In this document: positions 16,012-64,000 of the stretch, piece by piece | How the letters are laid out: each line of letters begins with the position of its first letter | How positions within the stretch are numbered: the stretch's first letter is position 1 | From: Escallonia rubra | Taxonomy: Eukaryota > Streptophyta > Magnoliopsida > Escalloniales > Escalloniaceae | Direction of reading: 5' to 3' | Assembly (NCBI GenBank): GCA_033065855.1 | Contig: JAVXUO010000425.1 | Span: 62,001-126,000, forward strand | Length of the DNA: 64,000 nt | Program-made: the position numbers and the translations under genes | Notes under the pieces: generated by a model | The model's input: only the letters and a program-made list of their open reading frames with translations | Told to the model about the DNA's origin: nothing | Database searches by the model: none

Positions 16012-16436
16012 CTGCCACAGCAACCACGAAATGGGGTACGAGCTTTACGAGCCTTGAAACTTGTCATTTACGCCTAGCTTATGCTTTCGCTCTGCATTTT
16101 GGTCATAGATGCACCGTGAACAAAGAAATCGTTGCGAGAGATAGAAACTGGTTCAAACTTTGTGGTGTTATCATGTTTGAAAGCTGTATTATTATCACCA
16201 TCAGACCTCTAGCCTTAGGTTTCCAAATTTAACACCCCACAAACTGGTTAGTGTTGGAAATTTACGTAACGATGCTCGTGAGAGAGGGATATAGGCCTTG
16301 TTCAATACCAGAATTATAAAGGTGCGTATGGATTCAATTCTTTGGAGTTGGTGGCACCTTTTGAGTTATGACAATGGCACCTTTTTTGAATTACCTTCCG
16401 AAAGGCTCGGCCTGGTTCGGTGCAAAACTGGAATGA

Positions 16437-16982
16437 AGGTGGCTGTCTCTAAACCTTGAAAGCATTTCAACCTCAGTCCGGAACACAGGGGCTCCTTGGT
16501 GTGACATGGAATTCAACCGCTTCATTGCAACAACGGTTGCCCCATTATCCATGATCCCTTTCTACACCTTTCCGAATCCACCCCGCCCAAGCATCAACGA
16601 AGTTTCTTGTTGCAGATTGCAGTTCAGCAAATGAAAAGCGACGGCAAAGTTGATGTTCCGAAGAGGACAATGGCAATGAATAATTTTCTTTTTCTTTGTC
16701 ATCTAAATTAGATTCCTGAAGTTGCCTTAGGTAATAAACAACGACATTCAATAGTACGATTAAAAATATCGCACCATNAGCAATTGGGCTTCCAAAGCCA
16801 AACGCTAGCCCTGATTTGTTTAGCTTTGGGGTTGATTCGGAAGGATGCGGGGGAGAAGAATTGTCGAAGTATAAAGAGATATCAACAGGGGAGTCAGGAG
16901 TGGGTGAACTACCAGCAAAGACCAAAAGTGGAAAATGGAGAAAAAAGTGGAGAATGGTGCCAATAGGTAGTTCAAGGAACAT
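16437..16982 (-). pseudogene. 5' fragment of a tandem-kinase gene
   Basis: From the ATG at 16982 the frame encodes the signal peptide MFLELPIGT, the short ectodomain, the membrane segment and the juxtamembrane LCRRFSF region. A deletion then removes the glycine loop (DAW replaces DASVIGRGG), followed by remnants up to the HSHL region. It stops abruptly at about 16437, where it joins LysM-RLK-flank DNA. The same join occurs at about 63855. One base is ambiguous (N at 16777). Confidence 0.8.
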
Positions 16983-17418: not shown

Positions 17419-17589
17419 TCTATATTTATATCATATCTATATCTATATAATATATAATAAATGAAACGTGCGTTTAATTATTTGCGCAACATATCATCAC
17501 AGATATATGACTTCTTTGCCTGACACGTCATCACATTATGCTTTCAATGTGAAATAAAATTATAATCATTATAAGTGTCACTAATAGTT

Positions 17590-18600
17590 TAAAATATTAT
17601 CTTAAATGGAGTTCTTATTTTTTGATGGAATTCTTATTTCTTAATAAGTTTATTTTCATATTACTAAGCTTTATATAATTGAAAAACTAACTATAAACGT
17701 TCTAAAACTCTAATTCATTGCTGAACTAACATATTAACAATTAATTTTGACTATTATATTCTTAAAATCACTTTCTAATATAAATATATAAATTCATAAG
17801 TTTTACAAATGATACTAACATACTATATTTATATGAGAAGAAAAAAATGATGTCATAATTGAGAATATTATCTTGAATATGGTTCTTATTTATTGTATGT
17901 TATTTTTCCTATGACTAAGCCTTATATAGTTGAAAAACTAATTCTAAACATTCTAAAACTCCAACTGCTTGATGAACTAACTTATTAGTACTTAATTTTG
18001 ACTATTATATCCTTAAAACTCTTCTCTATTATGAATATAAAAATTTATATATCTTAAAAACAAAAATAACATACTAGATTTTGAAGAGAAAAAAAAAATG
18101 TTGCTACAATTGAAAATATGATCTTGAATGAGGTTCTTATCTCTTGATAAGTTAATTTTCATATTACTAAGCCTTATAGAATTGATAAGCTACTTATAAA
18201 AGTTCTAAAACTCTGACTGATTCATGAACTAACTTATTAAAACTTAATTTTGACTATTGTATCCTTAAAAATTCTCTCTATTATGAATATAAAAATTCAT
18301 CTATCTTAAAAACGAAAATAACATACTAGATTTAGAAGAGAAAAAAAAATGATGCTACAATGTAAAATATTATCTTGAATGGGATTCTTCTGTCTTGATA
18401 AGTTAATTTCGATATTACTAAGCCTTATATAATTGAAAAACTAATTATAAACGTTCTAAAACTCTAGCTGGTTGATAAACTACTTATTAAGACTTAATTC
18501 TGACTATTGTATCCTTAAAGCTACTCTCTATTATAAATATAAAAATTTATATATCTTAAAAACGAAAAATAACATACTAGATTTAGAAGAGAAAAAAAAA
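17590..18600. repeat. Tandem repeat of about 250 bp inside Helitron H1
   Basis: Four diverged units share landmarks such as CATATTACTAAGCCTTATA (about 17655, 17915, 18163, 18412), TTCTAAAACTC and a following AACATACTAGATTTAGAAGA. Further degraded units occur at about 18900-20200 and 25480-25560. No coding potential. Confidence 0.75.
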
Positions 18601-26853: not shown

Positions 26854-29800
26854 TAAATATATAATAGACGAAGCGTCGTGCGTTTTGGAGGAGACACATA
26901 AGCTTTTTTATGTATTATTTTCCCTTTTTACCCATTTTAATTATGCGACATGTCATTTTTGTTTAATTTTGCGACACGTCATCATCTTTATATTGGTGTT
27001 TCATTCATCTTCTACCTCTACTTAATATAGTCACACATGCCTCATGACTCTTTATTGTAACTTATTATTGAAAAATTCGGATGTATAATTATCATAAATT
27101 TGGTTGATCTTATAAGAATAAAAAATCAATTCCACACATTCTAAAACTCTACCTAATCAATGTATCTATATATTAGGACTTAATATTCACTATTAACACC
27201 CCAAAAACACTTTAAATAACAAAATAAACACTGAAACATAAATTACATGTCATCATGTTTATTTTGGTGTTATATTCCTCCTTTACCTCTACTCTTTAAA
27301 GTCTATCATGACTCTTTATTAGTATAACTTATTATTAATTCGGAGGTATTATTATCATATATTTAGTAGAGCTTATAAGAGTAAAAAATCTCTTCTACAC
27401 CTTTTAAAAATCTACCTAATCAATGTATCAATATATTAGGACTTGATTTTCACTATTAACACCTCAAAAACACTTTTTATAATAAAATAAACACTTAAAG
27501 TTAAAGAAAACATAAATTGCACGTCATCATATTTGCTTTGGTATTCCATTCCTCTTTTACCTCTACTTAATATAGTGACACATGCATCATGACTCTTTAT
27601 TGTCACTTATTATTGAAAAATTCGGTGGTATAATTATCATAAATTTAGTTGATCTTATAAGAGTTAAAAATTAATTGTACACTATCTAAAACTCTGCTTA
27701 ATCAATGTATCAACATATTGGAACTTGATTTTGACTATTAGTATCTCAAAAACACTTTAAATAACAATACTCAAATATTAAGAAAAAATAAATCACTTAT
27801 GAAAAAAAATTATAAGCCACAAATTAAAAACTTTCTTTTCTTTATACAGAAGTAATATGTAAAAAGAATATGAGTTAATTATTGTAAATAATTTAAAAAT
27901 ACCAATATGAGATTTTAGTTCATCAGTTAATCTTAATTATATCAGATTGAACTTTAAAACACATAAGTTTTTCTAAGTGTTCTTTTCCCCATACTTATGT
28001 GCCACATTATCTTATTTGTTTTAATGTCTTTTTCTTTTTTTACACAACTTATTAACTCTTTACTAAGATTTATTATTAAAATATTTCTAAACATTATTGT
28101 CCCAATTGTTGTAAACATTTTAAAACTAGAAAAATAATTCTAAAATATTAATTATATACTATTGAACTTTAGAATACATTAGATTTTTTAGTGTTTTTTT
28201 TTTTTTTTCCCCTTCTTACTTATTCGACACGTCATTCTATTTGTTTTGGTCATTTTCTTTTTTCACCCCCAACTTATTGACTATGCATTATAATTTATTG
28301 TAAAAAAATATGGATATTATCGGCCCAATTTTCGTAAACATTTTAAAACTATAAAACTAACTCTAAAGTTTTTAAAACACTATCTATGAATATACTTACA
28401 TATTAGGCCTTCATTTTGATTGTTAACACCTTAAGTGCACTTTAAAATAACAAAATAGAATCTCACAAATATAAAGTACAAAGACAATGTCTCAAAAATA
28501 AAGGTTAATACTTAATATCTTTTCATATAAGCAATATAAGAAACGAATATGACTTCATTTTTCGATATCTTTGAAATCACAAAATTGCAATTTACTTCAT
28601 AAATTAATTTTAATATAATAACTCAAAATCTAAAGTAGAAATAATATACTCTTTTGAATGCTCAAAACAAAGAATCAAATATAACGCATTTTTAAATTAA
28701 TCACTTTAGAAAATCTTCACAAACATATCAAACTGGCACCTCTAAAAATTATTGAACATGATCTTGAAGTGCAACAATTAAACACATGGATTGTCACCAT
28801 AATGCTACGCTATTTCTTTTACAGGGTTAATTCTATCTTTGAAATGATGGTTCTCTAAGAAATTTTGGCCGCTATCTAGGTCATAGGAAAATGCCTACAA
28901 CCTCCCGTATAGTGAAACTCAATGGTCGTTCTATACTTTTAGTGGCACTTATTTAATGACTTTAAAAAGGTTCTTTTAAAAATTATCAGCTATGGTGTCA
29001 ACAAAAATGACACTAAACATATTTATCGATCATTAACTGTTTTCTATAGAGAGTTGTAGAACATTTCATGGGTGGTAGGTAAAAATAATTCATTACTCCA
29101 CGTGCTTCCATTCTAGTTCCAATGTCTATTTTTAGTTGCTGATTTACAATAAATTACTAATTGTATAGTTCGTGCACCTTTTTTAGGATTTTTCTTTTCC
29201 AATACAAATTACTACGACTGATTATTAATTCATTATATTTTAGTTCATATATAGGGTAATCTACAAAAAATAATGTAAAATATATGATATTCGAACTTTA
29301 CAGACTTCTATAATCACCTTAATATACTTTAAGCTTTGAACTTAATAAACAATATACAAATCAAAGATGAAGTATAAGAATTTTGTAACCTTATACAATT
29401 ACATCCCCATCTATCACAGTTTAGACAACTGTACGAATATTCACCGGTGTATGATTGTTTAGTCTCAAACATAAAAAGAGGTTTTGTAAAATGATATGAC
29501 ATTTTTATGATCATTTAGACAATAATTAGGAAGCGCCGAACATGACCATGAAGTAAAGCAATTAGAATACAGATATTGCCACTATAACACTATAGTTCTC
29601 TTTTCGGGATTATTTCTACATTTCAAAAGGCCGGTTGTCTGAAAGGAAGTAAAATAACTCCACTAACTTCCATTTTTCTCTAAGATTTTCATGGCACGGC
29701 TTTTAGTAGGTTTATTCAGTCTAGACTAATTTATTTAAAAAATTATTTGTTCCTTTTTTGTACTTTCTTTTACAAACTTTTAAATTTCATTGTAGTGGAC

Positions 29801-30429: not shown

Positions 30430-31600
30430 GCTTATAATTGCGACGCATAAGATTTTTGAAACTCTATCTTTGCACTACGTAAGATTTTTTAGGAACATTC
30501 TCCTCCTGCCATGTAAGCTTCAACTTTGCAAGTGGTAGTCCCTTAATTTAATTGGTCTCTTTATTTAGAGTCCAACTCTTTTGAATTAGATATATAAAAT
30601 TCAATAATCTTATTTATTTTGGTATTTTTTTCCTTTTCTACTCTATTAAACTCTTTACTATTATTTGATATTAAAAAATTCGTAGGTATAATTTATACAA
30701 TATTTTTAAACTTTATAAAACTAAGAAACTGATTATATATCTTCTTAAACTCTACCTAATCAATATACTTATACATTAGACCTTAATTTTGATTATTAAA
30801 ACCTCAAAAGTACTTTAAAATAACGATATAAAATCTCAAAAATATAAAATCTCAAAAATCATACCATACTTACTAATTCTTTAGTATGATCATTGGCCCG
30901 ACTTTTGTAAATCTTATAAAATTAAAAAACCAAATCTACCTCTTTTAAAGCTCTACACAATTCAAAAAGGCTTCAATTTGGACTACTAACTTCTTAAAAA
31001 CAATTAGCTTAAAATTGCGACACATAAGATTTTTGAAACTCTATCTTTGCGACAAGTAGAATTTTTTTAAGAATATTCTTTTTCTGCCACGTAAGCTGCA
31101 ACTTTGCATGTGATAGTCCCTTAACTTAGTTGGTCTCTTTATATAAAGTCCAACTCTTTTGAATTAGATATATAAAATTAAAGAATCCTATTTATTTTGG
31201 TATTCTTTTCTTTTTCTACTCTATTGAACTCTTTATTATATTTTATTATTAAAAATTTCTTAGGTATAATTTATGCAATATTTTTAAGCTTTATAAAACT
31301 AAGAAACTAATTATAACCTTCTAAAACTCTACCTAATCAATAAACTTATAAATTAGGCCTTAAACTTAATTATTAAAACCTCAAAAGTACTTTAAAATAA
31401 TAATATAAATTCTCAAAAATGTAAAATACGAAAATCATACCCTACTTACTAATTCTTTAGTATGATCATTGGCATCGACTTTTGTAAATCTTATAAAATA
31501 AAAAAACCAGATCTACTTCTTTTAACGCTCTACATAATTCAAAAAGGCTTCAATGTGGACAACTAACTTCTTAAAAATACTTAAAACAAATAAAATAAAA
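30430..31600. repeat. Two tandem copies of a 577-bp unit in Helitron H3
   Basis: Unit one runs about 30433-31009 and unit two about 31010-31590. Both begin AATTGCGACnCATAAGATTT and contain TGGTCTCTTTAT, a GTATGATCATTGGC motif and a closing TTCAAAAAGGCTTCAAT. Similarity is high, so this duplication is younger than the repeats of H1 and H2. The unit includes the Helitron's subterminal sequence. Confidence 0.85.
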
Positions 31601-39740: not shown

Positions 39741-41445
39741 TCGGTGCAACTGGAATGAAGACGTAATTCTGGATTTGTTCTGATGGCAAAATCATTGAAG
39801 GCTCTTCCACTTTTATGTTAATGCAGGAGCAAAGGATTGAAAATGCCTTTGAGGCCGAGAACGCACTTAGAATACAGGACAATGGCTCTGCTGATATGGT
39901 CATCATGTAGCAGTTCAACATTTGAAACTTGAATGAATAGAATTTAAGGAGTTACAGCCACAATTGTACTCTTTTAACTGTGTACAAAGAAGAAGGGAAC
40001 CTAAAAAAGCCCTCCTATACAACACAAGGTCGGTCGAAACATTTACAAATGGTAGGTATACAAGAAGAGTTTGTCTAGGCATCACTAATATGCATACTAA
40101 GCCACATTGCTACCTTCCTGACATTAGACTAACTAGACCTTGATTTTCGTAGCCGACATCCCAATCCTCCGTCGAGGATGATAACGTCATTAGTGCAACT
40201 ACGATCGACCTCATGCTTGGCCTCAGTTGAGGGTTTTCGTGGGTGCAAGCTTTGGCAAGCTGCGCTATCTGCATAACATAGCCACCACCATACTTCAGTA
40301 AGCGATCAGTACTTTTTGCGCCCTGCTTGGATACACTTTGCACCGTATCTTTTTTTTCCCGTTTTCAGAAAATATTATACCGCCATCCATATATCTCTTG
40401 TAGTAAGGGCACTTGAACCAAATTCTTTTTACAGAATTTCATAACAGGGTATCCAAAAATGTTTCTAAAAGTTCCGAGTTTTATCAAGAGAAAAACAAAG
40501 CACGTTCTGAAATTCCATAAATAGAGTGCAGCAAAGTGTATCCGAAGTCTAAATAGGGACTTGTTAGTGCACAACGTGAATTTGCTGCTATATTTTTTTT
40601 TGTACCCTTACCTTACGGACTGAGTCGAGCGGGTAATCATCGCCAAGAGTCGGATCAACCGTTTTGCATAGATCTTTTTCTGGATCAGGCTGACTTAGAA
40701 CCTCTTAAAACTGCACAACATCAAGAAAGGTCGATCAAACTCAGATCTTCTGCATGGAAGTAGTAATGAGGCTAAAAAGAGAATAATTGGCAGTTTAGGG
40801 AGGGCACAGGCACAAGCACAAGATATTACCACAGCAACGAGGCCCCTGGATTCTTTGACAACTTCATTTGTCTTGAAGATGGCTTTTTTGGCAGATATAA
40901 GTTCATAAAGAACACCTCCAAAAGCATATACATCTATCTTAGGAGAAACATCACCATACTGAGCATACCTGCAACAAAAGCCAATGCCCTTAATTCATAA
41001 CAAAAACGGAATGGGGATAAAACGACAGCAGATGGAATACTATGGAGTCCTGGCTGTTCAGTCCCAATATACAGGTTCAAAAATTGATCTATCAATACTA
41101 GGATTATGTGACAGGAAATGTAAGTACTTGTCAAGTATTCATGTTCAATATATAGAAGCTACGAATGTCAGCATTGTGAAATATGGAAAGTGGAAACAGG
41201 CTTTGATTACGAGCTTTGACCCTTGTCTTTTATTATGTAAGGTAAAATGAAAAACAAGGACATTTAAAAAATGTCTTCTTGTCTATAAATGTGAATTGCC
41301 CCAAACTGTTTGCACTAATCAATCCTGAAAGCTGTTATCCGACCACTCTGGATTATCCTTCAAAGTTACCATTGAACTCCAATTAGGGATCTCTACGCTT
41401 TAACTCATTATATAGCTAACTTATCAATCATCAATATCAATCAAT

Positions 41446-44545: not shown

Positions 44546-45419
44546 TTAACAATAAAACATATCACTTCAGATGTTTGATATAATATCTCCAAGGCGTAGG
44601 TCTTATAATGGAGTTGATCAAGTCTAGTATCTGGCTATGAATGTGAAGGAATAGGTAAAATTTAATGACACAGTGATTGTTAGAAGGAGAAATCATTTCC
44701 CAGTGCTTCAAACGCTTCTGTTTACAACATGATTTAGATCGCTAATTCAAATGCATTTTTTCTTTCGCTCAAAACAACACAAAAACCACCTTGAATCATT
44801 TTATGCTCAATGGCAAAATATATGTAGTTTCCACGAAAGCAACATGAAAACAATACCCAAAATTCATATGTACTGATCATGAGATACTTGAGCAATTGCA
44901 TCACGTTTGTTGTAGTGCATCAACGCACTCAATATCGTAGTTTTTCTTTGCTATACATGGTTTCTGTTTGTGCTCATAGACTAATGACAACTCCACTAAG
45001 CCTACCTCCTCTATCAGAGCTATATGGGTCATATTCATGGATCCAACTTCACAAGATGGGTCTTTGTAAAGCCTCGAGGGCTATCAATAAATCACTTGCT
45101 TTTTTTTCCTCTAACATCGCAGATGGATTTATCTGTCTTCAGATCATTGCCTAATTAAAGGCGCCATACTAAATGATAATAAGAAGTTTCTTTTCTAATC
45201 ACTTTTTCTCCTACACACACTTTGAGTAGCGTAGGAAACCGACCTCGCCTCTTAGCTCTGCGTAGTAAACAGCTCCAAAGCAACCTCGACCAATTTTGTT
45301 TGACAGGTTGAAGTCATCTGTAGCCTTGGCAAGCTCTTCATATGAGAACTCCACTGACTTGTCCCCCGTGATACCTGTCAGCCGCGGGGAAGCAACGCCA
45401 ACAAGTGGACCTGAATCCT

Positions 45420-50895: not shown

Positions 50896-53800
50896 TCAGT
50901 CCTCAGACACTACCAGAGACTCGCTCCCTGCTGAATCAGACTCCAATTCTGAATTGATGCTACCATGCATAAAGTATGCAGGCTCTGAAGGCATTGGAAG
51001 AGTGACAGAGGGGCTACTAAGCATGAGAACGACTGCAGCCATGGACGGCCTCTTAGACGCAAGATCTTGAATGCATAGCAACCCCATGTTGATGCATCTC
51101 ATGATGTCTTGCATTGAACTCGTATCAGGGTTCAAGATAGGATCTACTTGATTTAAACATGTTCCTTTCCACCAACATTTCCAGGCCTGAAAAGTTCATC
51201 ATTNTTCGATTTAATGTATAAGAATTAACTTTCATGAGGTTACATTTAAGATCAGAAATCATCAAAAATCGTATGTCTGTACATACATATCTTAGAAGGT
51301 CATGTGTATTCTTACTGCTTTGACCAAAGGTAGTAGTCGTCTGGCCACTTACAATTTCGAGAACCAACCCCCAAAACTAAAGACATCGGATTTTTGGTAA
51401 ATATTTGCCCATGCATTGCATACTCTGGTGCCATATATTCACTGCAATGGTAGAGAGTGTTAGAAACCAAGGCACTTGTATCAGTCCCAAGAGACTTGCC
51501 TTGCTAATTGCTCCCTATATTCAGGAAACCAAGTTCGATTCTTTGACCACAACCTTTTTATTAACATGACAGTCGTGTTGGCTTGATCATACAGACCGCA
51601 TGTACTTGTTACAAGAGGAATTTTCACGGTTCGAAATATACATTCGACCAAAATAAACATATACTTACATTTGCGGACGAATTGTTGTTGTAGTGACTCC
51701 GTTTTCGTTTCCCAAACCATAATATGCAATTCTTGGATTCATCTCAGCGTCTAACAGAACATTGCTAGCTTTAGGTCGCTGTGAACTATTCACACTTGAG
51801 AATCTTCGTGAAGGTAAAGAAGTCCCTGAGCAACACCTCCTATTATCTTCCAGCGCTTATGCCAATCCAGATATCGGCACCTGACCCGATCTACAGATAC
51901 AGCCAAGCATACGGAGCATACACAAATTACAAAGTGTGGAGAAACAGAAACTTTCTTCATGAGTTTCAACTGTATGCCTTCTAGCTAGTAGGTGTATCAG
52001 ACAGGAGCATGTGCAGAGAAGCAGGAGAATACTTCTTACCAGACCGGAATTGAGCAACACTTGCATTCGGCATGAACTCAAAGACGAGAAATTCTTCGGC
52101 TGCTTCGACGCAGAAACCAAGGAGCCTAACCAAATTTGGGTGCTGAAGCTTTGCTGCTATGAATACGTTATTTTCAAAATCTCGTTCATCTTGTCTGGCA
52201 TGGTAAGACAGCCACTTCACTGATATTTCTTGTCCATTGGGAAGAATGCCCTACAGATACAATAAAAGCAATCTTAAACAGGTCGTCTCTCAACTCTCCA
52301 GGTGATTCTCCCTCTTGGGGTTGCGGAGGAAGAGTCATTATGAAGAATGACAGTGTTTTAGGGAGAATCGTGGCTTTTTACCTTGTAAATAGGTCCAAAT
52401 GCATCTTTTTCAAGCATGCGAGTGCGGGAGAAGTTATCGGTCGCTACACTAATAGTACGAAAGCTGTACGGCACGGACTTCTGGGGGCTATCTTTATCGA
52501 GAAAAGAACCACCTGCATTGGGCTCGAAAAAAAGGACCCAGAAATACATGAGACCCATGAATACGAACAATTTTGCTATAGAAACGGATTATACAAATAT
52601 TCTGAGTTCAAAATGGTTTATTCCTCTTATGAAGGAATAGCGGCCTATTGGTTCCATATAGTGTGATGTAAACATTCAAGAACTCTTCATGCAACAAATT
52701 CCAGAGTTGAGGTCTTCTTTTAAAATGTCCGAGAAAAGAAGGTAAATATCCAAACCTAAGCTACCAAATCACTTTACACTTCCATATTTACCATAAGCTA
52801 TAGTATCAAGTCACCACCATCACTATTCTACTCCATCAGGCAAAAGGTAAACTTGAAAAATGTTAAGTTTGAGAACCTGTGTTTGTAATTCTGAGTTGGA
52901 TGAATGAGTAAGAGATCAGATGGTTACCATATGTTTGGGTGAATTTTGGCGTGCGAGCATGAGCAAGAAAGAGCACAAGGAAGGTTTCTATATTAGTAGT
53001 AACGGACATTACTTTGATGGCAAAGGAAGGACTTCATCAAGTTCATCAGAGTTGATGAGATAGACTACTTTTATCATGTAGCTTATTTCTCCATTTCAGT
53101 AAGTCCCTACTGCAACTGTGGTGGGATTATTTCTTTCATTACCATTACGTTTTTTATCTTTTACCGGAAGAGATAAACAAAACACAAAGCGCAATAGACA
53201 GACAGTTTCAGTTTACCTGAGTTGATCAAAGCGCTGCCTGTAAGTAACCACCGGAACCTCTTCCAAACTGGCAATCTAGGTGGCTTAGTACGAGACTGCC
53301 TGCTGCTTGCATCACCTAGCCGTGTATCATCATAAATATGCTTGGCGTGCTGGCCACAATCACCAGTTTTGATAGAAGAATCCAGAGTCCCCTCCTCTTC
53401 AACAGAAAATACCTCACCAACCAACTTCTTGCGTCCTAAATCAACCTCTATTGGCTGGACATTTGGGCCATTACTACTTGCAGTAATAACCTCGTACTCC
53501 TAACTAAAATTTAAACTTTCCTCAACCATAAGAGAATTTGTTTTCTCTTGCAGTGCCAATGCATACTCAAGCCTCACCACAACTTCAGCCATTGTAGGAC
53601 GTTTTTTGGGACGATTATGCAGACATTGTTCTGCAATTTGTACAAACACCATTAAACAGTCTGACAATATTTTCCCCTGCAAAGAGGGATCTATAATCTG
53701 ATCTACTTTTCCTCTCCTGACGCAGTGCTTGGCCCATCCAGCAAGACCCCACTGCTCCTCATCATCGAGACTTATATCCACAGCCGGCCTTCCACACAGC

Positions 53801-57861: not shown

Positions 57862-60800
57862 CTATGGATTGGAGCTACTATGCGTTGAATTTCGTGGCTT
57901 TGAAGGCATTGGAAGAGTGCTAAACGAGCTAAGCATGAGAACAACTGAAGAGATGGTTGGCCTGTCAGCTGCCTCTTCTTGAACACACAGCATTGCAACG
58001 TGGATGCATCTAACAATGTCACCCATTGGACTTGTACCAGCCTTCATTTTAGGATCTACCAGCGGTAAGAATGCCGCACCCATCCAACATTTCCAAGCCT
58101 AAAGAATTTACCATGTTCGACTTACATTTCAGTATATGCTTACATGATGTCATATATAATGCAAAATGTGAATCTGAACTTACATAGCTTAAAAGGTCTT
58201 TCTCACTCTTCTGAAAACAGTAATTCTTCTGTCCACTAATGATTTCGAGAACCAACACACCAAAACTAAAGACATCTGACTTCTCAGAGAACTGCCCATG
58301 AATTGTGCACTCCGGTGCCATATATCCACTGCAAGTTAGGTGTTAGATAGAGTTGCACACCAAAAAACAATAAAATTTAACAGATTCCAAGGTCAAACAC
58401 CAGTCTGAACCAAGTCCCAAATATTTGTACCTGGAAATCTCTCAGGCTTAATTCTCCAAGATCACAAGTTATATCATTTCTGAGATAGGTAGTATATTGA
58501 GCATATAATAGGGAGAACAAAGGTCTGTGCGAATTCAATTCAGGCATTCCCTGAGCATCAATAGGAGACTCAACCCAGACCAGCCTAACTATGCAGAACA
58601 GATTCAGAAAGTCCACACTCAAGACAGAGCTCAATCTCAAGATGGTATCAGATCTCTTCCAACCATTTTGGTCTTTCCTTGTGGTTGGATTCTTGGCCTC
58701 AAACCTTAATGTAGGATTATACTGCTGCTTGATAAAAAGGTCTCATTCCAAATTGAACTCCTATGGTTGAAATTACATACTTGGTCGAAACAAAGAATAC
58801 TTACTTGGTTCCAGAGATGCTAGATGTAACGTTTTGGGTTTTGCCCAACATTAGTGACCCTGCCAGACCAAAATCTGCAATTTTTGGATTCATCTCAGCA
58901 TCTAACAGAACATTGCTAGCTTTTAGATCACGGTGGATAATTTGAACATGAGAATCTTCATGAAGGTAACGAAGTCCCCGGGCAACACCTCTTATAATTT
59001 TCCAACGAATATCCCAATCCAAATATGAACGCTTTGCTGGATCTAATAGTACACCAAGCATGTGGCATTGTCAGAGCAAAGTCTAAATCACAAACTTTCC
59101 AGAAACAAAAATCTTCATGAGTTTCCGCTGTATGCAAAATGCTTGTGAATGTATTGTACATGCCCATGTGAAGCGAATTAGGAGAGTTAGCATACCAAAG
59201 AGGAAGTGGTCAAGACTTGCATTCGGCACAAACTCGCTGACAAGAAGGCTTTCAGCTGCTTCGAAGCAATACCCAAGGAGTTTAACCAAATTCTTGTGCC
59301 GAATCTCTGCCACCATCAACACCTCATTTCTGAATTGTAGTTCACCTCGTGTGGAATCGATAGACAGCCTCTTCACGGCTATTTCTTGTCCATTTGGAAG
59401 CTTGCCCTAAGATGACGGCAGAATTGATGTTAAACAGGTCAAACCACTCTCAAGGAATGCAAAAGTTGCTTATAATCCAAAATGCCATTGTTTCCGGGCC
59501 GTCATCTGGGGCTTGGGGGCTTTTGGGGGGGTTTACCTTGTAAACACGCCCAAATCCACCTTTTCCAAGCATATTAGCATCAGAGAAGTTATCTGTAGCT
59601 AAACGAATTGCATTAAGACTGTACTGCAATGACTCCAGGGTGGTATCTACAACAACAAATGAACCGTTTCTGATAAATTGAAAAGTACCATGCGCTCAAA
59701 GGTAAAGGTCACGAATTCCAATGATTTAATTAGTTATCCAGTTAGATATGTTTACAGCTTACTCTCATAAGTCTGATTTACAAATTTTAAGAACTTTTCG
59801 TTTTTTATATATTTGACTGTGCACATTCAAGAACTTGATGTCTTCTTTCAAGAACTTTCTTGTATTACCTATTCCAGAATCTAATCCTCTCCTTTTAGAA
59901 GTGCCCCAGAAATAAAAGTCCAATCCGTAAAGCAAAGGTAGCAAATCTTACACAGTTCCAGATCTACCATCCTCGTGCCCTTAGCTATATTATCAAGCAA
60001 CCATCATCATAGTTTAGGCAAAGGATAGGCTTGAAATGTAAAGTTTGAGAATATTTCTTAGAAGTTCAAGTTTAATGAATGAGCAAGACATCACATGTTA
60101 TTAGTTGAATATTGTAATGTGAGATTGAACAAAACTGGAATGAAGAAATTTTTTCTAGAAGTAAAGTTTGATACTCAATATAAGATCAAGCCCCGAGAGA
60201 CCTAGGTTAAGGCTACTCTAAAGTTAGAATTGATGAAGTAGACGCTTCTTTCATCAAGCTTAGTGTTCCTCTGATTCACTCTCTGCCTCAGTTATACTGG
60301 ACTAATTACTATTGCTATATTTCAATTTCTTGTTACTGAAAGAGGAAAAGAGAACACACATCATGATAGATGAATAGTTTCAACTTACCGGAGTTTCCTG
60401 CAGCAGCTCCCGTAAACAATAGCCGGAGCTTCTTTGATAATGTCAATCTAGTAGGATTCGTTCCAGACTGTTTGTCGCTTGCATCACCGGGCCATGTAAT
60501 TCCACCCATATATTTCTCGTGATGGCCACCATTACCATTGTTGGCATCCTGTTCAACAGATGAGCCTGCAACAGGCAATCTTTTGCGTCCTAAATCACCC
60601 AGGGCAAGAAAAGCTTTCCCAAACAATGATGGTTGTCCCTTCCTTGTAAATGTCATCGTGGCATGCTTTACATGAGACTGCCCACTCCTTGCATTACCCA
60701 ATTTTACAGTTCGATTAACCGGCCGGTCATTAGGAGAATTTGCACTCTCTTGAATGTCATAAGCCCCACTAAAACTTGAACTCTCCTCCCCAACCTTTGA

Positions 60801-62054
60801 AGAATATGTTCTCTCTTCCAATGCCAAAGCATACTCGAGCCTCGCCACTACTTCAGCCATTGTTGGGCGTTTCTTTGGACGACTGTGCAAGCATTGTTCT
60901 GCAATTTGTACAAATGCCATTAAACAGTCTGACAATATTTCCCCCTGCAAAGAGGGATCTATAATCTGATCTACTTTTCCTCCCTTGACGCAGTGCTTGG
61001 CCCATCCAGCTAGACCCCATTGCTCTTCATCATCGAGTCTCATATCCATAGCTGGCCTCCCACACAGCACTTCGAACAATACCACCCCAAAGGAATACAC
61101 ATCAGATTTCCTCGTCAGCACATGAGTCAAGTGATAATCGGGATCCAAGTAGCCAAATGTACCTCTGACATTGGTGCTTACATCCGTGCATGACTGATTT
61201 GCCGGGCCTACTTTGGACATCCCAAAGTCGGAAATCTTAGCTGCCCAATCTTCGTCCAACAAAATGTTTGAGCTCTTCACATCACGATGTATGACTCTGT
61301 CCTTGAATCCTGTACCAGTGTGAAGGTAGTCCAATCCACGCGCTGATCCAATGCATATTTTAAGGCGTTGCACCCAGGATAAAGGAGCATTAATGTTTTT
61401 ATCGATTTTGTGCAGATGATCAGCAAGGGTTCCACGGGGCATATACTTGTAAACAAGTATCATCTCATGGCATTCATCACAATAACCAATGAGAGCGACA
61501 AGGTGGCTATGTCGAAACCTTGAAAGCATTTCAATCTCAGTCCGAAACTCAGGGGCTCCCTGGTGTGACATGGAATTCAACCGCTTTATTGCAACAATAG
61601 TTGTTCCATTAACTATGATCCCTTTGTACACCTTTCCGAATCCACCCCGCCCAATGACTGAAGCATCATCGAAGTTACTTGTTGCGGATTGGAGTTCAGC
61701 AAATGAAAAGCGACGGCAAAGTTGATGTTCCGAAGAGGACAATGGCAGTGAATAATTTTCTTTTTCTTTGTCGTCTAAGTTAGATTCCTGAAGTTGCCTT
61801 AGGTAATAAACAACGACATTCAACAGTACGATTACAAATATCGCACCATTGACAATTGGGCTTCCGAAGCCAAACGCTAGCCCTAATTTGTTTAGCTTTG
61901 GGGTTGATTCCGAAGAATGTGGAGGAGAAGAATTGTCGAAGTATAAAGAGATATCAGCGGGGGAGTCAGGAGTGGGTAAACTACCAGCAAAGACCAAAAG
62001 TTGAAAATGGAGAAAAAAGTGAAGAATGGTGCCAATAAGCAGTTCAAGGAACAT
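57862..62054 (-). CDS. Intact tandem-kinase receptor (CrRLK1L-type kinase + DUF26-RLK-type kinase)
   Basis: Exons: 62054-60389, 59646-59537, 59406-59196, 59042-58805, 58328-58184 and 58098-57862; 2,607 nt, 868 aa, every phase consistent. Order: signal peptide 1-24; short ectodomain 25-68 without malectin; membrane segment about 69-84; kinase 1 with GRGGFG 135-140, Lys157, Glu173, HRD 256-258, DFG 276-278; polar linker about 410-555; kinase 2 with GKGGFG 583-588, Lys604, HRD 699-701, DFG 719-721 and APE. Both halves keep their catalytic residues, so two active cytoplasmic Ser/Thr kinases are expected on one membrane anchor. The phase-1 donor (CCG|GTAAGT) and phase-1 acceptor (GTTGTAG|AT) create an Asp codon. 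The second half begins where the kinase exons of DUF26 RLKs begin and has no start or membrane segment of its own. Ligand and partners are unknown; an immune-receptor role is inference. Confidence 0.78.
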
Positions 62055-63854: not shown

Positions 63855-64000
63855 ATGAAGGTGGCTATGTCTAAGCCTTGAAAACATTTCAATCTGAGTC
63901 CCGAACTCAGGGGCTCCTTGGTGTGGCATGGAATTCAACCGCTTCATTGCAACGACAGTTGCCCCATTATCTTTGATCCCTTTGTACACCTTTCCAAATC
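63855..64000 (-). pseudogene. Tandem-kinase gene 5' fragment, running off the window
   Basis: The minus-strand reading recovers the part of kinase 1 around the glycine-loop end (KGIKDNGATVV), the Lys region (AMKRLNSMPHQGAPEF) and RLRHSHL. It then joins LysM-RLK-flank DNA at the same point as the fragment at 16437. Only its downstream end is in the window, so I cannot judge the rest. Confidence 0.7.

Follow-up and report, generated by a model that had tools for sequence, protein, structure and literature searches.

The locus at positions 62054-57862 (minus strand) of the window, i.e. the entire stretch of 64,000 nucleotides of Escallonia rubra DNA analysed here, carries two kinase halves which, as read from the DNA, are one open frame of 868 codons distributed over six GT-AG exons, as the first-pass annotation had supposed. 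On a modest balance of probability this locus, hereafter G, is a single gene for a membrane-anchored CrRLK1L-CRK tandem-kinase receptor, and a member of an asterid family whose second kinase is exchangeable and is a putative immune bait. Exon 1 (62054-60389, 1666 bp) encodes a signal peptide (aa ~1-24), a short ectodomain, a transmembrane segment (TM; aa ~65-85), a CrRLK1L kinase (K1; aa ~115-415) and a linker, and ends at a phase-1 GT donor. A phase-1 intron of 742 bp (60388-59647), across which the splice joining the two halves is predicted, is followed by exons 2-6 (59646-57862), which encode a DUF26/CRK-type kinase (K2) and measure 110 bp (59646-59537), 211 bp (59406-59196), 238 bp (59042-58805), 145 bp (58328-58184) and 237 bp including the stop codon TAG (58098-57862). 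Two kinase stretches are recognized by Pfam in the 868-aa frame, at the level of the gene model. Neither a malectin domain nor a DUF26 ectodomain (PF01657) was detected by Pfam in the same frame, where ~40 aa separate the signal peptide from the TM, and none of the three sense frames of the K1-K2 intron contains a TM-like segment. Spliced alignment of G with its own protein returns the frame, which amounts to self-recovery only.

The assignment of K1 to the CrRLK1L class is borne out by solved structures, among which FERONIA scores highest in the PDB (376 bits, versus 294 for the next molecule). K2 best matches DUF26 RLKs bearing PF01657, with identities up to 65% and ranging down to ~50%; identity to S-domain RLKs is at most 54%. 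The Escallonia K2s form a single clade (98/98) among CRKs, in a tree whose deep branches are weak. G thus resembles FERONIA-type CrRLK1L receptors in K1, but differs from them in lacking a malectin-like ectodomain and in having an extra kinase and introns; it resembles DUF26 receptor kinases (CRKs) in the sequence of K2, but neither a DUF26 ectodomain nor a TM belonging to K2 was found.

Further copies of the first kinase, all on the minus strand, populate the window. The five CrRLK1L/DUF26 pairs signalled by the first-pass annotation can all be read from the DNA. Besides G, these are A (7609-3657; six exons and 799 open codons, CRK kinase with HRD and DFG), B (13816-9439; same layout as G, one stop and three frameshifts in the K1 exon, open K2 exons), D (38183-34104; 918 open codons encoding an anchor, a CrRLK1L kinase and a CRK-type kinase, the latter with HRN and GFG and predicted to be catalytically dead) and F (54725-50918; degenerate, each half being broken by frameshifts and stops, with the donor at 53217 and the acceptor at 52512). 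The DUF26-type nature of the second half holds for these five pairs, but the class is not fixed, the sixth pair (E) having a CERK1/LysM-type second kinase. C (16982-16436) is a truncated anchor with a first-kinase fragment carrying a frameshift and a stop, and H (63858-64000) a truncated first kinase which runs past the window on contig C969 to ~126321. The supposed single anchor per protein is found in G and D, but was not detected in A and E among the six window pairs, nor in J and L elsewhere on the contig. Along with G (868 codons), the examined part of C969 hosts five stop-free six-exon two-kinase frames of 776-918 codons (D 918, I 915, J 801, A 799 and L 776, the starts of A, J and L having been chosen by the analyst), two of which, A and D, reside in the window.

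The organization of the pairs is conserved where a coding frame would demand it. The GT donor of exon 1, in phase 1, is kept in all six K1 copies having a second half (A, B, D, E, F and G), and the K1-K2 introns of the five CRK pairs measure 704-1022 bp, in agreement with the 0.7-1.0 kb first estimated. The 211-bp exon is constant in the five models of DUF26-type pairs; the 238-bp exon, credited at first to four pairs, is found in three of the five (A, D and G), B having 232 bp and F being broken. Both are the sizes that the first-pass annotation expected for kinase exons of DUF26 RLKs. When copies were compared in nine pairs, the indels located in the final 240 bp of exon 1 were all multiples of three, save for a 1-bp one in which the broken copy B is involved, whereas those of the K1-K2 intron include lengths of 1, 2, 4, 5, 7 and 13 bp; the coding frame therefore ends at the donor. 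The introns of D, E and F each have a weakly TM-like stretch in a single frame, and those of A, B and G have none.

Locus E (47580 to 40.6k, minus strand) illustrates how the second kinase may be exchanged. Exon 1 (47580-46290) encodes a CrRLK1L kinase, without a detectable anchor exon, and ends at a phase-1 donor. The second kinase (45410-40610) is made of exons 45410-45244, 44503-44414, 43935-43842, 43760-43609, 43528-43437, 40968-40830 and a last one starting at 40710, those of the C-lobe having been located with a template sequence; it is in frame with exon 1, carries HRN and EFG, and has a premature stop at 40707. It scores 340 bits against a LysM receptor kinase and 328 against CERK1, the next class reaching 138. 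E is 90% identical to A through K1 and ~690 bp of the intron, up to 45603; from 45583 it matches in three pieces (91, 91 and 89%) a LysM-receptor gene (C969 136184-131027) adjoining the cluster. The switch thus falls within ~20 bp (45603-45583). Chassis and donor gene each contribute a phase-1 intron, and the resulting chimera keeps the reading frame. An alternative in which the native CERK1 acceptor is out of frame was rejected, as the donor intron is in phase 1 and the exon starting at 45410 is in frame. In the K1 tree E falls in a clade of eight rows (97/92) together with five CRK-bearing rows and two of unknown partner. Comparison of the DNA sequences shows E to be an intron-to-intron, phase-1 swap, for which both donor gene and breakpoint have been identified.

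Annotations of two-kinase proteins similar to G exist for Lonicera, Apiaceae and Asteraceae, and for Lamiales in a form with a malectin domain; the first-pass annotation had proposed to look in plant proteomes for proteins having both kinases and no malectin. Relatives were drawn from the best 120 of ~7,980 sequences scored in each of three protein searches, and in at least 82 of the 325 proteins retrieved a kinase of a different class lies somewhere behind a CrRLK1L kinase. CRK, SERK, RLCK-VII, PTI1-like and LysM are the classes seen in the second slot. The fusions in databases are mostly predicted genes, and prediction can join adjacent genes into one. P0064 (1197 aa) is a single ORF on a contig of 4204 bp and P0068 (874 aa) one on a contig of 3130 bp; both contigs come from the source 'lgn' and are probably assembled reads of cDNA. 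Lonicera proteins are colinear with G (~53% identity over 90%), and for one of them, P0021, AlphaFold predicts two kinase folds (ten-residue means mostly 70-95) connected by a disordered linker, with a pTM of 0.45. G is not among the best 120 homologues listed; RJ640_005677, the only one of these at least 94% identical to window DNA, merges A, B and C. When the genome was queried with RLCK-VII, mostly CrRLK1L copies were matched; two RLCK-VII loci (L029 and L030) may be read as having a phase-1 donor behind the tail, the models being template-dependent. The proposal that a CrRLK1L gene replaced the ectodomain and membrane exons of a DUF26 RLK is in line with the absence of Pfam domains from the three sense frames of the G and E introns, the two scanned. 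However, a malectin domain is still present in the Lamiales-type relatives P0064 and P0077, and ectodomain loss and gain of the second kinase thus look like separate events. In the campanulid members seen the chassis mostly lacks the malectin ectodomain.

The catalytic K/D/D residues are intact in 62 of 62 first kinases, a figure favoured by the use of a query with an intact K1 and by the relatedness of the rows; in the second slot they are intact in 33 of 69 domains and incomplete in 36. In proteins without a CrRLK1L kinase they are intact in 276 of 289 domains. The count took 62 of the 82 fusions, as proteins lacking a full first and second domain were dropped, as were domains gapped at a scored residue. 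Losses in the second slot, along with K2 omega values up to 1.21 and stops or frameshifts in B, C, E and F, would be expected were the fusion real and the second kinase a decaying passenger, frequently captured by unequal recombination and drifting into roleless pseudokinases; fast evolution of K2 and lost residues fit relaxed constraint as well. Yet K2 copies differing at 121-157 sites contain no stops versus 4-5 expected (P 0.0025-0.013, values too favourable because copies were picked as open, and F and E, which have K2 stops, were left out), and gaps among the same open copies are multiples of three only. Moreover, G, whose K2 has K/HRD/DFG, and A keep the catalytic residues in both kinases, and such fusions occur in several asterid orders. 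We regard mere passage as unlikely, though it is the competing view that fares best.

A receptor with an exchangeable second kinase is also suggested by the trees. The class of the second kinase changes 22-24 times on the K1 tree of 77 rows, 19 times if CRK and SD1 are merged, and 10 times if only the 54 rows are counted in which what follows is not a further CrRLK1L kinase. CRK-type fusions do not all share a single origin. The K2s of P0064 and P0077 fall among Lamiales CRKs (99/94), and an AU test rejects joining them with the Escallonia K2s (p 0.0016); the K2 of Lonicera P0028, sister of a single Lonicera CRK (100/99), is likewise excluded by AU from a common origin. For Escallonia and the other Lonicera CRK fusions a common origin is marginally rejected (p 0.045). 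Four long-branch rows (P0076, P0112, P0087 and P0219) were omitted from the AU tests. So many class changes over the tree are unexpected for one conserved pathway, and speak against an endogenous relay without immune bait, in which one kinase phosphorylates or scaffolds the other, for example in cell-wall or RALF signalling. Such a relay accounts well for the FERONIA-like K1, for the catalytic residues kept in both kinases of G and A, and for the malectin ectodomain of P0064 and P0077; it accounts poorly for the many second kinases without catalytic residues and for the clustered, fast duplicating loci, which are typical of defence genes. We hold it to be improbable.

Slightly less probable still is that two adjacent genes lie at each locus, an intronless CrRLK1L-like kinase and a truncated DUF26-RLK remnant, transcribed separately or never, which would share a frame only as a consequence of tandem duplication. 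P0046 (RJ640_005674), annotated as exon 1 alone and stopping few codons beyond the donor, agrees with this arrangement. So do the synonymous distances. Across the 15 pairs formed by six copies, K1 and K2 dS are correlated (r = 0.96), but once G is taken out the coefficient drops to -0.05 in the remaining 10 pairs (of A, D, I, J and L). A general co-duplication of the halves was consequently discarded as an interpretation of dS, and retained only for the deep split of G from the rest; loss of the correlation weakens our favoured explanation, as well as the notion of a docking intron discussed below, and strengthens the two-gene view. The latter is opposed by the donor kept in all window pairs, by the six open joint frames, by the absence of Pfam domains ahead of K2 in the G and E introns, and by the colinear fusions annotated in Lonicera. 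An artefact of assembly or annotation, due to an ONT draft and merged gene models, is most improbable: the genome is reported to be an ONT draft assembled with Canu and polished with Illumina reads (PMC10759652), and RJ640_005677 does merge three copies, but the frames and splice signals come from the DNA itself rather than from gene models and hold in six copies, and the same kinase order is predicted in Lonicera, Tanacetum and Centaurea, the Centaurea second kinase being weakly classed.

In the model we favour, the phase-1 donor that closes the chassis exon in Escallonia would be the point beyond which kinase exons are captured and swapped. The chassis would sit in the plasma membrane, with its active first kinase in the cytosol. 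The second kinase would be drawn from immune-type receptor or cytoplasmic kinases (CRK, SERK/BAK1, CERK1, RLCK-VII and PTI1-like), and would act as a bait, or integrated (pseudo)kinase, bound or modified by pathogen effectors; the first kinase, or else a partner such as an NLR, could detect changes in it, in keeping with proposals made for tandem-kinase proteins of cereals. More tentatively, with the odds somewhat against it, the phase-1 donor intron of a conserved CrRLK1L membrane kinase may be the docking site of an evolvable asterid receptor platform, which has repeatedly captured kinase exons of the CRK, CERK1, BAK1, BIK1/PBL and PTI1 classes, often kept as folded pseudokinases. Such a platform would be an equivalent, built on kinases, of NLRs with integrated decoys, and the window would display how capture takes place. 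A tail motif common to all chassis, whatever the second kinase, could not be established. An HMM was built from six tails, five of CRK class and that of P0028 (labelled SD1), with the best of 550 shuffles as cut-off; it is exceeded by 10 of 25 further CRK linkers, including that of P0001, which contains seed A, by 2 of 22 RLCK7 and 1 of 7 SERK linkers, by 2 of 3 that have no kinase behind them, and by none of 42 CrRLK1L and none of 8 other SD1 linkers.

NLRs with integrated decoys have a conserved chassis and recurrently captured, changeable domains; they serve as working analogy for the asterid proteins, in which the chassis is a membrane kinase. Turnover and loss of catalytic residues in the second slot may point, indirectly, to an integrated-decoy role. 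Rpg1, Yr15/WTK1, Sr62, Pm24/WTK3, Lr9 and Pm57 similarly have two kinase domains per protein, but the Escallonia proteins start with a signal peptide and a TM, have the CrRLK1L kinase first and second kinases of several classes, and belong to a dicot (asterid) lineage. Kinases of the DLSV group (DUF26, SD-1, LRR-VIII, VWA) are common in the cereal proteins, kinase-pseudokinase pairs occur, and a decoy model has been proposed (PMC8956640, PMC11153570). Pm36 (WTK7-TM), grouped with Rpg1 and called an orphan gene, also has a TM, which is C-terminal and required for function, and no CrRLK1L kinase is mentioned for it in the excerpted text (PMC11006675). The sunflower OrDeb2 and OrAnom1 intervals for broomrape resistance contain clustered CrRLK1L-class candidates with two kinase domains and no malectin; these proteins are reported to lack a TM, and both halves of the long ones are CrRLK1L-like (PMC8866362, PMC10884359). 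No description of a CrRLK1L-CRK tandem kinase was recognised among the papers listed by the literature searches, and Reveguk et al. (Nat Genet 2025) may list such combinations; the combination, of which the first-pass annotation knew no description, is not unique, as it has annotated relatives across asterids.

The cluster offers a concrete mechanism for the origin of tandem-kinase resistance proteins, recombination between phase-1 introns, with a donor gene and a ~20-bp breakpoint identified, and with open active-active and active-dead copies to be compared. From the classes of the captured kinases it may be possible to tell which host kinases are being attacked. Should the second kinase indeed be a bait, these asterids would possess a membrane-anchored dicot platform whose bait changes by exon swap, and this may be one way plants build new pathogen sensors.

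Locus G (window positions 62054-57862, minus strand), the main locus of the first-pass annotation, reads as a single frame of 868 codons in six exons with GT-AG borders. The predicted protein includes, in order, a signal peptide, an ectodomain of about 40 residues, one transmembrane (TM) segment and a kinase whose nearest match is FERONIA; a linker then leads to the second kinase. Best matches of the latter are DUF26 receptor-like kinases (RLKs; up to 65%, vs 54% at most for S-domain RLKs). Both kinases retain the catalytic Lys, HRD-Asp and DFG-Asp. Segments of the E. rubra protein RJ640_005677 are identical (100%) to window DNA.

Gene models for every copy were built with a spliced-alignment script. 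Pairs formed by a CrRLK1L and a CRK-type kinase reside in the window at loci A, B, D, F and G, B and F being broken; at locus A the anchor exon was not detected. The window spans 62001-126000 of contig C969 (805,961 bp), which was also covered from 2001 to 62000 and from 126001 to 266000. These flanks add three CRK-type pairs, J at 14 k, L at 49 k and I at 130 k. Six copies have a two-kinase frame free of stops. Its length is 868 codons in G, 918 in D and 915 in I, the only three of them with the anchor, and 801 in J, 799 in A and 776 in L, where the start is our choice. The interkinase linker of J (L009-L010, C969 14772-10560) hosts a coding minisatellite with SSDAYFSVEQEVITA-like units. At locus K (L012-L013, C969 42097-34386) a first kinase at 41 k is followed, about 3.5 kb on, by a kinase classed by eye as LRR-VIII-like. 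The retrieved protein P0048 is similarly organized, its second kinase being apparently of LRR-VIII type, a possible further partner class.

Loci C (16436-16982) and H (63858-64000) are truncated first kinases. Their matching ends at the identical codon, and about 1 kb, 3' flank included, is common to both at 89%; the truncated unit was thus itself duplicated. Three short arrays of A+T-rich direct repeats of about 250 bp, possibly satellite-like, lie between C and D (17587-18568, 26975-27799 and 30485-31583). In the whole assembly about 60 further first-kinase copies were found at an identity of at least 65%, on C968, C695, C2763, C3135 and other contigs; haplotig duplicates may account for part of this number. 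Judging from these matches, first kinases are greatly expanded in Escallonia.

The fusion of the two halves is supported by the phase-1 GT closing exon 1, kept in 6/6 window pairs. Indels upstream of this donor are multiples of three, with a single exception in the broken B, and downstream indels are not. No Pfam domain was found in the introns of G and E, the two scanned. TM-like stretches, each in single frames, occur in the introns of D, E and F, and none was found in those of A, B and G. The dS values of first and second kinases are correlated (r = 0.96; 15 pairs, six copies), but the correlation is a contrast of G with the remaining copies, and r drops to -0.05 without G. In 82 of 325 retrieved proteins a CrRLK1L kinase precedes a kinase of another class. 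The same kinase order is predicted in database proteins of Lonicera, Tanacetum and Centaurea, the classing being weaker for the last; in Daucus and Apium proteins the second kinase is RLCK-VII or ambiguous CRK/SD1. The Erythranthe proteins P0064 and P0077 retain a malectin ectodomain. P0064 and P0068 are single ORFs on short contigs (4204 and 3130 bp) from a source labelled 'lgn', which are probably cDNA.

A different second kinase resides at locus E (47580 to about 40.6k), the sixth pair of the window. It is CERK1-type: bit scores are 340 for a LysM receptor kinase, 328 for CERK1 and 138 for the next class. Identity between E and A is 90% from the first kinase through some 690 bp of intron, up to 45603. 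From 45583, E matches in three pieces (91, 91 and 89%) a LysM-receptor gene which adjoins the kinase cluster (C969 136184-131027). This donor has an intact kinase and, upstream, a TM exon and an ORF identified by eye as a LysM-receptor-like ectodomain. The donor intron between the TM exon and the first kinase exon is phase 1, and exon 1 of E is in frame with the native acceptor of the captured kinase. In the first-kinase tree (77 rows) the clade of E (97/92) has eight rows; of the other seven, five bear a CRK, and for two the partner is unknown. dS is 0.067 between the E second kinase and the donor, and 0.137 between the E and A first kinases, consistent with a swap later than the separation of E and A. 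In the captured kinase the motifs read HRN and EFG, and a stop at 40707 is premature (its C-lobe exons were placed provisionally, with a template); E therefore records how a second kinase is swapped, not a functional outcome. Upstream of the donor (L016, C969 about 140732-139989, minus strand) lies another LysM-receptor-like ectodomain ORF, recognized by eye; receptors of this type are thus also in tandem beside the cluster.

By BLAST class, the kinases found behind the CrRLK1L kinase are CRK, SD1-like, RLCK-VII, SERK, another CrRLK1L, and a type which we take to be PTI1-like; the SERK and RLCK-VII assignments were also examined by comparison with the BAK1 and PBL2/BIK1 structures. The 77-row tree requires 22-24 class changes, 19 if CRK and SD1 count as one class, and 10 when only the 54 rows without a following CrRLK1L kinase are considered. 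The topology of the second-kinase tree indicates separate captures. P0064 and P0077 lie inside Lamiales CRKs (99/94), and Lonicera P0028 has an ordinary CRK of Lonicera as its sister (100/99). AU tests rejected the grouping of Escallonia with P0064/P0077 (p 0.0016) and of P0028 with the five remaining Lonicera copies (p 0.0015); that of Escallonia with those five copies was marginal (p 0.045). The second kinases of P0116 (Daucus) and P0267 (Apium) appear by eye chimeric, an RLCK-VII N-lobe being joined to a CRK/S-domain C-lobe, hinting at swaps within one kinase domain.

A complete set of Lys, HRD-Asp and DFG-Asp occurs in 62/62 first kinases, 33/69 second-slot domains and 276/289 domains of control proteins without a CrRLK1L kinase, and, for the CRK/SD1 classes alone, in 17/36 fused vs 274/287 control domains, the weight of the test values being limited by relatedness among rows and by the intact query. 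Within the cluster, the second kinases of G and A are intact, and those of D, I, J and L miss HRD-Asp, DFG-Asp or both. Omega is 0.29-0.57 for the first and 0.34-1.21 for the second kinase. In four pairs of open copies the second kinases differ at 121-157 sites, with 0 stops vs 4-5 expected (P 0.0025-0.013, values too favourable since copies were chosen as open, F and E being left out), and gaps are only multiples of three. Relaxed constraint with slow decay is a possible explanation. We rather read the second-kinase fold as held by selection, surface and catalysis being free to vary.

Fused frames and one exchange by intron recombination are documented at the DNA level, and across relatives the second kinase has turned over. 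At the level of the gene model, the predicted G-type product is a tandem-kinase protein, and would work like one; it differs from both CrRLK1L and DUF26 receptors, the ectodomain features of neither being found. The captured kinase classes are hubs of pattern-triggered immunity. Their identity, the decoy model proposed for cereal tandem kinases (PMC8956640, PMC11153570, PMC11006675), and the sunflower CrRLK1L dual kinases, candidates in two broomrape-resistance intervals (PMC8866362, PMC10884359), suggest that such proteins may reside at the plasma membrane, as the signal peptide and TM segment predict, where the first kinase would provide active output, and the second would sense effectors. 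Kinase fusion proteins are termed a class specifically found in cereals in a 2026 paper (PMC12830362). No description of the CrRLK1L-CRK combination was recognized among the literature matches listed, which do not extend to the content of the principal survey (Reveguk et al. 2025). The exchange of the second kinase is seen here with unusual clarity.
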